64,000 nt of DNA. Source: a virus. The notes beneath the pieces were generated by a model. The model was given only the letters and a program-made list of their open reading frames with translations, made no database searches and was not told the origin of the DNA. This document shows, one piece after another, positions 20,677 to 28,133 of the stretch. Every line of letters begins with the position of its first letter. The stretch's first letter is position 1. Position numbers and translations under genes: made by a program. The DNA is taken from positions 1 to 64,000 of IMG/VR virus record IMGVR_UViG_3300045971_000577; one strand, written 5' to 3'.

Positions 20677-20901
20677 TTATTGGTGCTCGAGCAGCGTTTG
20701 ACAGTGCAGGCAGCGTATGCATGCAGGGACCGCTAAACGCCGCGCATCCGCTATTTTTTCGCCACAATCCACGCAAATATCCGACCCTTTGCCCTGCAGC
20801 ATACGCCCGCGCACAGCAGCAATCGCGTTCTCATTCAAGTGCATCGCGTGGAGTTGACCCATCTCTTCTTCGGCAATGTTACTATGCTGGGTGTTATCCA
20901 T
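20677..20901 (-). CDS. DksA/TraR-type zinc-finger protein, 74 aa
   Basis: C-terminal C4 zinc finger CVDCGEKIADARRL then CIRCLHCQ, the DksA/TraR signature. Family members enter the RNA polymerase secondary channel and retune promoters, often with ppGpp. At 74 aa it is TraR-sized. Begins MDNTQHSNIAEEEMGQLHAM; the word QHSNI also ends a 16-codon frame on the other side of the inserted endonuclease gene. Confidence 0.85.
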   Translation of the reverse strand: MDNTQHSNIAEEEMGQLHAMHLNENAIAAVRGRMLQGKGSDICVDCGEKIADARRLAVPACIRCLHCQTLLEHQ

Positions 20902-21544
20902 TTTCGAGTTCAGCTTTCTTTCGAGCCAGAAATGCATTCATAGAATTTCTTCTCTTCTGCCGTGTCTCTTCGGAGATAGGTTTTGGAGGATTATCCTTTA
21001 GGTAGGCCTTACGAGTCTCGGATTGTTTCCGTTTTGTTTCTTCCGAGTGGTGCTTTCCAAAATTCGGATGATTGACTCCTGCTATTTTAGCAGAAATAAG
21101 CTCCTTTGTCTCATCTGAATGAAAATTGCCTTTGTTCTTTGCACCAATCTTAGATCTTGTTTCTGCCGTCGGAACTCTGCCATAGTTTGGATTATTTTCA
21201 CCAGACGTTGCTGCAGATATTCTTCTTTTTGTTTCGTCTGTATGGCCGTCACACTTGAAGCGTCTCTTTGCGTTATACTTTACATTTTTGTTTATCAATA
21301 GAGGATTATTCCAGTTCTCGAAGATTAGCGATTGCTCAAAGTCATAAGCAGACTGATCATCAAAGAATTCGGCAACGATAGTCCAATTGAACTCGCTGAA
21401 TGTTTTCTTTATTGGTGGTGAAGATGTGAAGTAGATCTTTCCAAAATCTTCCGAAGATGGAAGATTATGAAAAACATTTCTTTCTCGATAGCCGATATAG
21501 ATCTTGCCGGTGACAGAGTGGACGCCTATATACACATAGGGCAT
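20894..21544 (-). CDS. GIY-YIG homing endonuclease, 216 aa
   Basis: MPYVYIGVHSVTGKIYIGYR holds the GIY-YIG motifs. NUMOD3-like repeats follow (GENNPNYGRV, KNKGNFHSDET, GVNHPNFGKHHSEE). AT-richer than its neighbours. Overlaps the start of the DksA-like gene by eight bases and is preceded by a late-promoter octamer: a recently inserted free-standing endonuclease. Confidence 0.88.
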   Translation of the reverse strand: MPYVYIGVHSVTGKIYIGYRERNVFHNLPSSEDFGKIYFTSSPPIKKTFSEFNWTIVAEFFDDQSAYDFEQSLIFENWNNPLLINKNVKYNAKRRFKCDGHTDETKRRISAATSGENNPNYGRVPTAETRSKIGAKNKGNFHSDETKELISAKIAGVNHPNFGKHHSEETKRKQSETRKAYLKDNPPKPISEETRQKRRNSMNAFLARKKAELENG

Positions 21545-21574
21545 CGGTTTAGTCGAGGCAGGGAACGTCACCTC

Positions 21575-23851: not shown

Positions 23852-24097
23852 TTAGGCGTACAGGCGAAATTGATCGCCGAAAACGTCTCTGCGGCTCACA
23901 GCATAGGCGGTGCGGCCCTTGGTGTTGGTTGTCTTACGAACAACCAACCCGTTTTGGCGCATTTCTGAAATTCGCGCACGCAAATTTTGCACACCGAAGG
24001 TTGCAGCAGCCTGAGCTGATGTCAGGGTGCGGTTCGTTCCACGAAGATAGGTCTCGAGAAACTGATTCTGGGTCTTGGTAAGTGTTGTGAAGGACAT
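23852..24097 (-). CDS. winged-helix-like protein, 81 aa
   Basis: TSAQAAATFGVQNLRARISE then MRQNGLVVRKTTN follows the helix-turn-helix plus wing pattern of small regulators. Single gene with a near-consensus promoter and its own terminator, so likely highly expressed; may regulate phage or host promoters. Confidence 0.8.
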   Translation of the reverse strand: MSFTTLTKTQNQFLETYLRGTNRTLTSAQAAATFGVQNLRARISEMRQNGLVVRKTTNTKGRTAYAVSRRDVFGDQFRLYA

Positions 24098-24154: not shown

Positions 24155-24185
24155 GTGGGCATCGGTTTTGACACGCGATGCCCAC
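24155..24185 (-). terminator. 10-bp hairpin, terminator-like
   Basis: GTGGGCATCG and CGATGCCCAC, loop 11 nt, at the end of the structured RNA A interval. No strong U-tract. Confidence 0.5.
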
Positions 24186-24232
24186 TATGATACGGTTGAA
24201 GCGTGGTCCGGAGGTAAGTCTCGGTACGCAAA

Positions 24233-24418
24233 CCGCAGCCATCCATATACTGGAGCGGCACCTCGGGCACCTTGGCTGTTATCGGCAGTTTCTATGCTTG
24301 CCGCTTATCGATGGGACCCTTGTAACATTAGGTATCCCGAACCCAATGCACGACCGTCAGTTAGGAATAGACAGACACTAGCGGATAAATCTTCCTACAC
24401 CCTTTCGGGCTCCGCTGC
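24233..24418 (-). ncRNA. structured RNA, copy A
   Basis: About 186 nt, folds like copy B at 26261-26449. Helices: AGCGGA/TCCGCT (24380-24385 with 24411-24416) around a GCCC-GAAA-GGGT hairpin; pseudoknot TAGGAA/TTCCTA (24392-24397 with 24362-24367); an 8-bp hairpin with loop TCGGGAT (24326-24348); CGGCA/TGCCG with loop ending AGAAAC (24283-24303); CAGCC/GGCTG (24236-24278). Bases differ from copy B while pairing and loops are kept. Lies between the sedolisin terminator and a hairpin, so probably a separate RNA. Confidence 0.7.
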
Positions 24419-24535
24419 TGGTTTGATAGCCACTGCAGACAAACCAAGTCTGAAGTGCGGTATGCGGTCCACTCGGCCATCGACGCTCCATCCAGGAAGT
24501 TATTAGCCCAACCATTGCTGGTCCCCTGCTCAGCA

Positions 24536-24557
24536 GGAAAGGGCCCGAAAGCCCCTT
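24536..24557 (-). terminator. terminator of the sedolisin gene
   Basis: AAGGGGC-TTTC-GGCCCTT hairpin followed by TCCTG, 16 bases after the stop. Confidence 0.65.
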
Positions 24558-24573
24558 GTGGATCCTATTTGGC

Positions 24574-26070
24574 TTACATGCCAGCCAGGATGCCAACCAG
24601 CGCCGCCGCTTTCGGCACGCCCAAACCAGTCGACAGGTCGTAACCCACCTTGGCTTGGGTGGCGCTCGGCCCACCGCTCACCACGTCGTTGAACGCTTGC
24701 GAGTACAGCAGCGGATTCGAAGCCACGGCGTAGAGCGCAGCCTGGAAGTCGATTGGCGTCTTGAACTGCTCAGCACGCACCGCGTTGGTGATTGCCGCCA
24801 ATGCCGCCCACTGCGGAGCACCGATGCTGGTACCGTAGCCACCGTACCAGCCGCAGTTCGCTGCACCCTTGGCTGTCACACATGCCTTGTCCGGGATCTG
24901 CGCACTGGGCGTCAGATACACGGAAAGCGCACTGGCCGCGTCAGCATCGAACGCCACGTCAGGCACTGCACGTCGCGGAAGGCCCAGGCTGGTTTGGTAA
25001 GTCGGCGTCGCATAGAACTGTGTCACGCCACCACCACTGCCACCCCAACCAGTGTCAACTGCACCCAGGTTGTTCGTGCCGCCGACAGCCAGCACACGGT
25101 TGGACACGGATGGCCAGATGGGACGTGCACCGATGTCGCCGCTGGCAGCCACGTAGGTGACGCCCGTTTTGCTGAACGCGATCGTGTCCCAGCCACCAGC
25201 CGTGTAGTTGATCTGTCCGTTGGGCATGATCGGATTGGCAGGACCGTACAGGTAAGTAGCGGTGGCCGAAGCTGCGGTGCAGGTGGGGTCGTACTGGACG
25301 AGCACACCTTGCTTGTTCTTCACACCCTGGCAGGTCGAAGCAAACCCGCTTTCGGCGCCGCCCCAACTCATCGAAACCACGTTGCCGATCTTGGCGCCGT
25401 ACTGCACACCAAAGGACAGCGCACTGACGAAGGGGCTCGGAACTTGCACCAGGACGATGGTCGCCATCGGCGCGATCGCATGCGCCCACTCGATGTCCAT
25501 GCTGGATTCGGCCATCCAGTTCATGTCGTCGCCGAAGGTCTGCTTGGTCGGGCGCCCGGTAGAGGTCAGGTTGATGACCTGGAAGGAGCAGCCGCTACCT
25601 GCAGTCGGCTTCGGCGAGTTGGCGTTGTAGTAGCCGGAAACAGGGTCCACGGTGTAGTTGGTGGTAACCACGTTGCACTGCGGAAGCCCGTGTTGCGCGG
25701 AGAACTTGGCCAGATCGCCCGCCGCGTTGGGGTTGTTGTAGGCGGAAACAATGACGATGACCTGTCCGCTGCCTTGCTGCGCGGGAGTCGTCAACGTGCC
25801 AAATCCGTAACGGGCACGAACTTGGGCGGGATTTTGGCCAAGGGTGGCAAGACCACCGGCCGTCTTCACGGATGCAAGCACGCCCGCAGTGGTAGTCGCC
25901 GCCATGGGTTGCATTTCCGGTTCGGCACCCAGCGCGGTTGCCGTTTCGCTGTCACTTTGTGTGGCCACAGCGTCTTTGGCCAACTGGTCGGGACCAGTGT
26001 TTTCACCACCGCCACATGCTGCCAACAGGCACGCCGTTGCGATGATGCTCAGGGATTGGAGCTTCTTCAT
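24574..26070 (-). CDS. sedolisin-like (S53) peptidase lipoprotein, 498 aa
   Basis: Lipoprotein signal with LLAAC box, Cys at residue 19, so it would be exported and lipid-anchored. S53 marks: ESSMDIEWAHAIAP (Glu and Asp of the catalytic pair), ASGDIGARPIWPS (oxyanion Asp) and GTSIGAPQWAAL (Ser). The C-terminal FNDVVSGG...GYDLSTGLG is the family's calcium site. The large activation prodomain of classical members is not obvious. Driven by a phage promoter with a variant leader; flanked by two copies of a structured RNA. Unusual cargo, probably acting on envelope or external protein. Confidence 0.85.
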   Translation of the reverse strand: MKKLQSLSIIATACLLAACGGGENTGPDQLAKDAVATQSDSETATALGAEPEMQPMAATTTAGVLASVKTAGGLATLGQNPAQVRARYGFGTLTTPAQQGSGQVIVIVSAYNNPNAAGDLAKFSAQHGLPQCNVVTTNYTVDPVSGYYNANSPKPTAGSGCSFQVINLTSTGRPTKQTFGDDMNWMAESSMDIEWAHAIAPMATIVLVQVPSPFVSALSFGVQYGAKIGNVVSMSWGGAESGFASTCQGVKNKQGVLVQYDPTCTAASATATYLYGPANPIMPNGQINYTAGGWDTIAFSKTGVTYVAASGDIGARPIWPSVSNRVLAVGGTNNLGAVDTGWGGSGGGVTQFYATPTYQTSLGLPRRAVPDVAFDADAASALSVYLTPSAQIPDKACVTAKGAANCGWYGGYGTSIGAPQWAALAAITNAVRAEQFKTPIDFQAALYAVASNPLLYSQAFNDVVSGGPSATQAKVGYDLSTGLGVPKAAALVGILAGM

Positions 26071-26144
26071 GATTTCCTTTCGGTTGATTTCAGGATGCAA
26101 CCACCCGGTTGCTTCACTGCAGGGCCTTTGCTGCCCATGTATGT

Positions 26145-26173
26145 ATTATGTCACCTCTGCCAACTGTGGTCAA
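26145..26173 (-). promoter_or_regulatory. promoter, alternative leader class
   Basis: -35 TTGACC, 17 nt, -10 CATAAT, leader CATACATGGGCAGCAAAGG. Drives the sedolisin gene with a 70-nt leader. Confidence 0.85.
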
Positions 26174-26185
26174 CAACCTTTTGAA

Positions 26186-26213
26186 ACAAAAGAAACGTGG
26201 CCCGGAGGCCACG
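26186..26213 (-). terminator. intrinsic terminator
   Basis: CGTGGCC-TCCG-GGCCACG followed on the minus strand by TTTCTTTTG. Ends the structured RNA B interval upstream of the sedolisin promoter. Confidence 0.75.
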
Positions 26214-26260
26214 TGAGGACGGTTGTAACCCTTTTCCATCTTCGGGAAGGTAAACCGTAA

Positions 26261-26449
26261 GTAGGGAGGCTGATCTTCTTGGCAGCCTACCCGCGAAAAA
26301 GGGAGTTTCTGGTGATTCCCTATGATACTTCTTTAACATTGTTGGGGATCATATTCACACCTGGAGCATCCCGAGCTCAGGTGAGGATCGTCAGATAGGA
26401 ATAGACGAACCTTAGGGGATTTTCATCCTACCTCTTTCGAGTCCCCTGC
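26261..26449 (-). ncRNA. structured RNA, copy B
   Basis: About 189 nt. AGGGGA/TCCCCT (26414-26419 with 26442-26447) around CTC-GAAA-GAG; pseudoknot TAGGA/TCCTA (26425-26430 with 26396-26401); CACCTG.AGC hairpin with loop TCGGGAT (26358-26383); AGGGA/TCCCT with loop ending AGAAAC (26300-26321); AGGCTG/CAGCCT (26267-26288). Every helix differs in bases from copy A but still pairs. Bounded by terminators at 26505-26532 and 26186-26213. Confidence 0.7.
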
Positions 26450-26504
26450 ATCTTGTCAACTAGGCGCTCGATGCCGTAGTTGGCAGCACGAATGCTGTCA
26501 ACAG

Positions 26505-26532
26505 ATAAAAGGAAGGCACCCAAGGGTGCCTT
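26505..26532 (-). terminator. intrinsic terminator
   Basis: AAGGCACCC-TT-GGGTGCCTT followed by CCTTTTA. Separates the 55-aa gene transcript from RNA copy B. Confidence 0.8.
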
Positions 26533-26945: not shown

Positions 26946-28094
26946 TTAGGCCCCAGCGAGCATGACTCCGCGGCGTGCAGCCTCCGCTTGCCGACGTTCC
27001 AGGAGACGCTTGAATTTTGCCTCCCGCAACAAACAAGTGGCTTCTGCCATCTCCGCCCAGTCTTTCGGGTCGGTTTTGACGAAGTCAGCCACCTTCTTCA
27101 CCATACGCAGCGACACTTCGCGCAGGTACTCGGCGTTATCGAACATGAACTTCAGGATGTCAGCTTCCTGTGCTGCGTCAAAGTTATACGGCGTCAGCAT
27201 GCCGTCGCGCACGACCTGCTTGATACGCAGCAGTTGGTCACGGATGGTGCCGATCTCCAGGTCCATGTAGTGGCAGCGTGACATGATTGCTTCCAGGTGC
27301 TTCGCAATGCGCGAACCCTTGGCAATCGTGCGCTCGAAGTCCACATTGGACAGGAAGATGATGCTGCCCTCGAAGTCAAACGCTTCGGGGATGTCTTCCA
27401 CTTGCAGAACGCGGCTTTCCTTGTTCCAGCAGATGCGACGCTTGTCGCCGCTGTTCAGTGCTGCCTTCAGCAGGTTCAGGCACTCTTCCTCGAACAGCAC
27501 GCCGTCGCAGTCGTCGAACACCAGCACTTGTTCCGGGTTGCGGTTGTAGTAGAGCTTCTGGTACAAGCCGATGCTTGACACACCGCCACTGACCACTTCG
27601 TATTTGGGATCTCGGCCTTCCATGGTGCGGAACATATTGGCGGCTGCCAACTGCTTCTCCACACCAAACGACTTGCCAATGCCCGGAGGGCCACTGACCA
27701 CCAAACCGCGGATGCCGTCCGGCTTCGTGCAGCCGTCCGTGATCTTGTCCAACATCAGGAACGTGTTCTCGATGCGGTCCATGGCTTCATCTTCCGTCTC
27801 CGCTGCGATGAACACCGCCTCGTAGTTCGTGGATTGCATGACGCCAGCAGCGCCTGCACCACCATCGACCACAATGTGTTCGCCGAGTGCTTCACCTTCC
27901 ATGTCCAGAAGTTCGAAGTCGCCCTTTTCGCAGCTGACACGCTGCACGGGAGGATGGCCGGGTTGCGGCTCCGGGTTGCGGATGGTCACGAACCCGCCCT
28001 TGGCGCCATCTTGCCATGGCTTCACCAGCGCGAAAGTACCTTCGACCGGTTGCCCACGGTAGTATCCCTTGGAAATCTTGCACTGAATACTCAA
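26946..28094 (-). CDS. AAA+ ATPase, 382 aa
   Basis: Walker A SGPPGIGKSF near residue 130, Walker B VLVFDDCDGVLF near residue 205, and a sensor-like IIFLSNVDF near residue 250. Single AAA+ module. Role (loader, remodeller, DNA metabolism) cannot be told. I place the start at a TTG six bases after AAGGAG (MSIQCKISKGYYRG); a TTG two codons earlier is too close to it. Own promoter. Confidence 0.88.
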   Translation of the reverse strand: MSIQCKISKGYYRGQPVEGTFALVKPWQDGAKGGFVTIRNPEPQPGHPPVQRVSCEKGDFELLDMEGEALGEHIVVDGGAGAAGVMQSTNYEAVFIAAETEDEAMDRIENTFLMLDKITDGCTKPDGIRGLVVSGPPGIGKSFGVEKQLAAANMFRTMEGRDPKYEVVSGGVSSIGLYQKLYYNRNPEQVLVFDDCDGVLFEEECLNLLKAALNSGDKRRICWNKESRVLQVEDIPEAFDFEGSIIFLSNVDFERTIAKGSRIAKHLEAIMSRCHYMDLEIGTIRDQLLRIKQVVRDGMLTPYNFDAAQEADILKFMFDNAEYLREVSLRMVKKVADFVKTDPKDWAEMAEATCLLREAKFKRLLERRQAEAARRGVMLAGA

Positions 28095-28133
28095 AGTCAA
28101 TCTCCTTGTTGCACTGCGCTCTGCAGTGTATGC

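Follow-up and report, generated by a model that had tools for sequence, protein, structure and literature searches.

Paralogous structured RNAs predicted downstream of nrdC.10 in a T4-supergroup jumbo phage share a constant 3' domain and differ from relatives in an apparently exchanged 5' domain

Two stretches on the minus strand of the window (the whole stretch of viral DNA analysed here, 64,000 nucleotides of a 369,145-bp virus record) very probably encode paralogous, diverged copies of a structured RNA, called A and B, as judged from their sequences. Each is composed of a 5' domain (V) and a 3' domain (C), and the RNA is probably non-coding and probably pseudoknotted. An RNA with the common 3' domain also occupies the slot downstream of nrdC.10 in four related phages, and the comparison of these sequences indicates that, from phage to phage, one 5' domain has taken the place of another on a retained 3' domain. 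In total, six RNAs were found in five phages, so that some of the covariation counts given below rest on few independent events.

The major capsid protein of the source phage, a jumbo phage of the T4 supergroup and a relative of Pseudomonas phage PA5oct, is of the T4 type; it is 78% identical to the PA5oct protein and 95-98% identical to those of many IMG/VR contigs. The region is organized as follows:

23855..24097, minus strand: HTH_39 protein, downstream anchor of the region, with its own promoter (TTGACA-17-TATACT)
24191..24416, minus strand: core of RNA copy A (domains V and C), with a probable transcript extending to about 24155
24577..26070, minus strand: S53 (kumamolisin-like, sedolisin) peptidase lipoprotein, between copies A and B (profile E=2.5e-12)
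26218..26447, minus strand: core of RNA copy B (domains V and C), with a probable transcript of about 26469-26195
26949..28100, minus strand: T4 NrdC.10-like ATPase, assigned by homology, upstream anchor of the RNA slot

Two RNA copies and their 5' domain

A sequence-only reading of this DNA had described a covarying RNA in two minus-strand copies, and both are present at the places given there. The core of copy A is 24416-24283; that of copy B begins at 26447, and its AGGGA hairpin reaches 26300. The two copies lie about 1.9 kb apart. A covariance model built from copy A only (R1) recovers copy B with 55.9 bits (E=5.3e-12, about 500 kb searched) and finds no third copy in the 369,145-bp record. 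When the 5' domains of A and B are compared directly, the similarity score is 52, against a maximum of 31 for shuffled sequences. The elements of domain V, all of them on the minus strand and with the helices of copy A taken from the A/B alignment, are listed here:

24304..24416: copy A domain V (R1 model and A/B alignment)
24416-24411/24385-24380: copy A helix P1
24410-24407/24402-24399: copy A helix P2
24397-24393/24366-24362: copy A pseudoknot PK1
24374-24370/24358-24354: copy A helix P3
24348-24341/24333-24326: copy A helix P4
24338-24334/24317-24313: copy A pseudoknot PK2
26340..26447: copy B domain V, with 8 compensatory pairs relative to copy A

In copy B, P1 is AGGGGA/TCCCCT, P2 is CTC-GAAA-GAG, PK1 joins TAGGA with TCCTA, P3 is TCGTC/GACGA, P4 is CACCT.GAGC/GCTC.AGGTG with the loop TCGGGAT, and PK2 joins GGGAT with ATCCC. 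All 33 pairs of P1, P2, PK1, P3, P4 and PK2 are present in both copies (one pair is gapped in B); 8 change on both sides, 3 on one side, and none is broken. When the 3' partners are slid by 1-3 columns as a control, only 38-50% of positions pair, with 0-1 double changes. This covariation, set against the slid controls, shows that the observation is real and not due to chance.

The five helices, one of them a pseudoknot, proposed by the sequence-only reading form in both copies, but P3, a second pseudoknot and a 3' helix had been overlooked. The conserved GTCTATTCCTA.CTGACG, which it had left without a pairing, corresponds to the hairpin P3 (CUGUC/GACGG in one copy versus UCGUC/GACGA in the other), whose loop pairs with UAGGA to form PK1. 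Being invariant between the copies (UAGGA/UCCUA), PK1 receives no support from covariation and is a predicted pairing. PK2 can form between the UCGGGAU loop and a G[A/U]UCCC farther downstream, with one G-U/A-U variation. The minimum free energy z-scores of copy A (0.1) and of the V domain of the related phage G026 (-0.4) are unremarkable, which may stem from the pseudoknots, as these are ignored by the calculation.

A constant 3' domain

The most conserved part of the RNA is the 3' domain C and not the 5' domain V described in the earlier reading, which had missed this. When the DNA of the region was compared with that of close relatives, the P5 hairpin of copy B had two short matches, both located just downstream of nrdC.10 (G026 and G027), and the P5-hairpin pattern was found in two further phages (L151 and L152). 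The two copies of the domain in the source phage are:

24191..24306, minus strand: copy A domain C (R2, 20.5 bits at the expected place; position, loop identity, P6 shape)
26218..26324, minus strand: copy B domain C (member of R2; DNA match to G026 and G027)

The order of elements is the P5 hairpin with the loop AUCAnnAGAAAC, a variable stem, the helix P6 and a terminator. P5 is CGGCA/TGCCG with the loop AGCATAGAAAC in copy A, and is formed by 26321-26317/26304-26300 with the loop ATCACCAGAAAC in copy B. P6, found around 26256-26253/26224-26221 in copy B, consists of two helices separated by a 1x3 internal loop (U opposite UCU or UAC), and reads CGGTT-T-GCGT..ACGC-TTC-AACCG in A and CGGTT-T-ACC..GGT-TAC-AACCG in B. 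A P5 loop of the form AUCA(n)nAGAAAC, a P6 with the 1x3 internal loop, the terminator and the location in the nrdC.10 slot together characterize the C domain as a new RNA family.

The domain was aligned from four sequences (G026, L151, L152 and copy B), on which the model R2 was built. In these four, 8 of the 18 pairs are changed on both sides, 91.7% of cells pair as compared with 30-52% in slid controls, and the covariation score was reached by none of 500 shuffles. P5 is invariant in all four, and the variable stem pairs in only 69% of cells, since the pairs are shifted or different in L151 and B. With R2, copy B, G026, L151 and L152 score 89-110 bits, G027 scores 29.7 bits and copy A 20.5 bits. 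Since a plain terminator in a further phage (L022) reaches 19.7 bits, a score of about 20 bits is no proof of membership, and the assignment of copy A therefore rests also on its position, on its AUAGAAAC loop and on the shape of P6. That terminator and one in phage BrunoManser, both resembling P5, were rejected as candidates.

Transcription signals

The signals found around the copies, all on the minus strand, are the following:

24155..24185: hairpin GTGGGCATCG..CGATGCCCAC that follows copy A and resembles a terminator, though its T run is poor (sequence reading; not called by the scan)
about 24557-24538: hairpin before copy A (no call in the scan)
26195..26214: terminator of copy B (terminator scan)
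26473..26501: possible promoter of copy B, TTGACA-17-TACGGC, with a good -35 and a poor -10 (sequence reading; no call in the scan)
26513..26532: terminator between the end of nrdC.10 and copy B (terminator scan)

The suggestion that each copy lies between terminator-like hairpins is thus borne out for B, which is enclosed by two called terminators (26532-26513 and 26214-26195), but the hairpins of A were not called, and the scan gave no recognisable promoter for A. The related idea that each copy is an RNA gene of its own gains support from the relatives, where near-consensus sigma-70 promoters precede the RNA (12/12 in L151 and 11/12 in G026) and a terminator-like hairpin follows it. These promoters and terminators point to stand-alone RNA genes. 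Copies A and B would likewise be transcribed in the source phage, from promoters that appear weaker than those of the relatives.

A terminator and then a gene on the same strand come after each RNA, which could also suggest a cis-acting riboswitch or attenuator, in which RNA and terminator would set the read-through into the sedolisin (B) or HTH_39 (A) gene. We consider this unlikely. The terminators follow the RNAs, and past them each downstream gene has a sigma-70 promoter of its own, also in L136 and L151; the downstream gene is not the same for A and B; no antiterminator overlapping the terminator stem, or other alternative pairing, was seen on reading the sequence by eye; and one relative, L171, has both genes without the RNA. 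A cis-regulatory role is made less likely by the downstream promoters and by the difference in downstream genes.

The nrdC.10 slot and its optional genes

In G026, L151 and L152 the gene order is nrdC.10, an optional gene, the RNA, its terminator and HTH_39 with its own promoter. The optional gene is a sedolisin in G026 and an HNH gene in L152, and is missing in L151. In L171, the sedolisin and HTH_39 are present and the site is empty, the sedolisin having no RNA before or after it, while in L151, L152 and L137 the RNA is present without sedolisin. The unusual peptidase gene which had been noted between the copies is confirmed as S53 kumamolisin-like (E=2.5e-12), but it is separable from the RNA, and the sedolisin without RNA and the three RNAs without sedolisin show that the peptidase is not the partner of the RNA.

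These arrangements contradict the proposal that the copies are the repeat ends of a mobile cassette, and make it highly improbable that the RNA is a cassette partner or a type III antitoxin-like partner of the peptidase gene, even if in the source phage this gene is flanked by both copies. The protein is an S53 peptidase and not a ToxN-like RNase, the copies are about 1.9 kb apart, and RNA and gene occur separately in relatives; a type III RNA antitoxin would be a tandem array of short pseudoknots encoded ahead of a ToxN-like RNase.

Pfam, NCBIfam and PHROGs gave nothing useful for the peptidase (24577-26070), and its AlphaFold model was poor (pLDDT 33) and was set aside, the identity being decided by the profile search. 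Orthologues with 54-59% identity occur in two related phages, and none was found among 50,697 phage records. Other features of these regions include a homing endonuclease in the same intergenic slot of L152, on the opposite strand (L152:7405-8097, minus strand; phrog_655, E=8e-42), and, in the window, a NUMOD3 protein whose N-terminus is GIY-YIG-like and which is probably a homing endonuclease (20897-21571, minus strand). In L151, the 3' UTR of nrdC.10 contains a second structured stretch of about 170 nt (L151:3400-3225, minus strand; fold z=-2.1) which ends in the terminator GAAAGCGTCTTCGGACGCTTTC and is possibly another RNA of the nrdC.10 slot.

Exchange of the 5' domain

G026 and L151 are about 94% identical over the 53 nt upstream of V (from the terminator to the -35) and over the 145 nt downstream of it (the middle block and P5). 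The V domains between these flanks are 213 nt long in G026 and 120 nt in L151, and their similarity of 14 does not exceed the mean of 15.5 for shuffled sequences; neither resembles A or B. A 5' likeness of B to G026 (TAGTT.ACAAGA.GCA) was no better than shuffled and was dropped. In L152 there is no V at all, and the promoter is followed by about 40 nt and then by the 3' domain. The V domain of L151 folds far better than shuffled sequence (z=-6.9) and has two hairpin loops that are complementary (CGGCAA and UUGCCG).

The middle block shared by G026 and L151 (CCGAGTATAAGAAGGCC...AATTCTAAA), about 105 nt before the P5 hairpin, is about 92% identical although P6 has diverged, and shows one compensatory change, GGAG/CUCC to GAAG/CUUC. 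It is absent from copies A and B and from L152.

The V domain of G026 contains an acceptor-like helix (GAGCUG/CAGCUC), positioned to begin at the predicted start site, and a tRNA T-arm of which 17-24 nt match the T-arms of annotated phage tRNAs; a T-arm sequence is also present in G027. These features would suit the view that the V domains are remnants of a tRNA cluster, in which decayed tRNA genes have become attached to a 3' end resembling a terminator, an explanation that nevertheless seems quite unlikely. ARAGORN makes no call there, the V domains of A, B and L151 have no tRNA features, and the compensatory changes indicate selection on structure. In L136 (1430-1642, minus strand), a tRNA-like 5' domain combines an acceptor-like helix, a T-arm and a long arm in which a loop-loop pseudoknot (GGUC/GACC) is possible; ARAGORN does not call it.

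Database searches

The fold had not been recognised in the sequence-only reading, and the comparison with Rfam proposed there agrees with this: in Rfam 15 nothing scores above the gathering threshold, and the weak matches do not fit. Neither ARAGORN nor Rfam calls a tRNA or tmRNA at the RNA loci, where only the T-arm and acceptor-like helix of the G026 V domain recall one. A self-cleaving or otherwise catalytic RNA, suggested by the compact pseudoknotted fold and the conserved loops, is very unlikely, as even with relaxed thresholds there is no match to a ribozyme model of Rfam and the V core is missing in related phages.

BLASTN of both copies against 50,697 phages gave nothing beyond chance. 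Scans of virus contigs used exact patterns, and neither the exact V motif nor a gapped V pattern had a match in viral_contigs; the V and C patterns were also without matches in GTDB genomes. No hits were obtained with R1 in 22 and 34 records of relatives, and R2, applied to 140 loci around distant nrdC.10/HTH_39 homologues, found nothing convincing beyond the known members, nor did it in PA5oct. A home-made descriptor scan was too loose and was set aside. Other AATCAnnAGAAAC sites in genomes are chance matches in coding sequence, as is a match inside a coding region of L150.

Proposed function

We tentatively propose, at somewhat short of even confidence, that copies A and B are stand-alone small-RNA genes acting in trans, in which a constant 3' scaffold is joined to an exchangeable 5' domain that serves as decoy or inhibitor. 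The RNA would be made by the host polymerase, the 3' domain would be a common handle for stability or protein binding, and the compact 5' domain, held by pseudoknots, would bind a molecule of the host or of a competitor. Such binding would explain the swapping of the 5' domain, as a constant scaffold with an exchanged folded domain is what we would expect if this domain meets a changing partner; the trans action and the decoy role are inferred.

Antisense pairing with mRNAs, the pseudoknots being merely protective, seems rather unlikely: size, promoter and terminator fit such an sRNA and the conserved loops could be seeds, whereas the most conserved loop (AUCAnnAGAAAC) is identical in phages with different V domains, and in A and B the loops of V are already engaged in intramolecular pairs.

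A precedent for RNA decoys has been described in phage PhiTE (PMC5449768): its phage-encoded pseudo-ToxI RNA is a mimic of ToxI, the pseudoknotted RNA antitoxin of a type III system, and neutralises an RNase that serves in host defence. ToxI-like RNAs are, however, tandem short repeats, while those described here are single-copy, about 230-450 nt long, share a constant 3' domain and form no repeat array.

Among T4-supergroup phages, T4 itself produces the stable RNAs C and D, which are abundant, structured and not tRNAs; the likeness is one of description, and the RNA found here differs in adjoining nrdC.10 between its own terminators. In PA5oct, ncRNA004, a lncRNA annotated by RNA-seq (619 nt; L042:361-979, corresponding to PA5oct 246116-246734), is likewise a transcribed non-coding RNA about 2 kb from the nrdC.10 homologue of a relative, but it lies on the opposite side of nrdC.10 and matches neither R1 nor R2. 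The prohead RNA of phi29 is a phage structural RNA with loop-loop pairing; in the present case there is no Rfam match, and no link to packaging genes was seen.

Significance

Phage proteins are modular and quickly exchanged; to find the same in a structured RNA, with a folded domain exchanged on a constant scaffold, would be new. It is conceivable, if doubtful, that these RNAs represent a modular phage platform in which folded 5' domains are recombined onto the 3' scaffold, each as inhibitor or mimic of a different host target, for example a defence protein. The model of the 3' domain, R2, offers a handle for finding more such RNAs. Should the 5' domains prove to be inhibitors, RNA counter-defence factors might be sought in the slot that follows nrdC.10.
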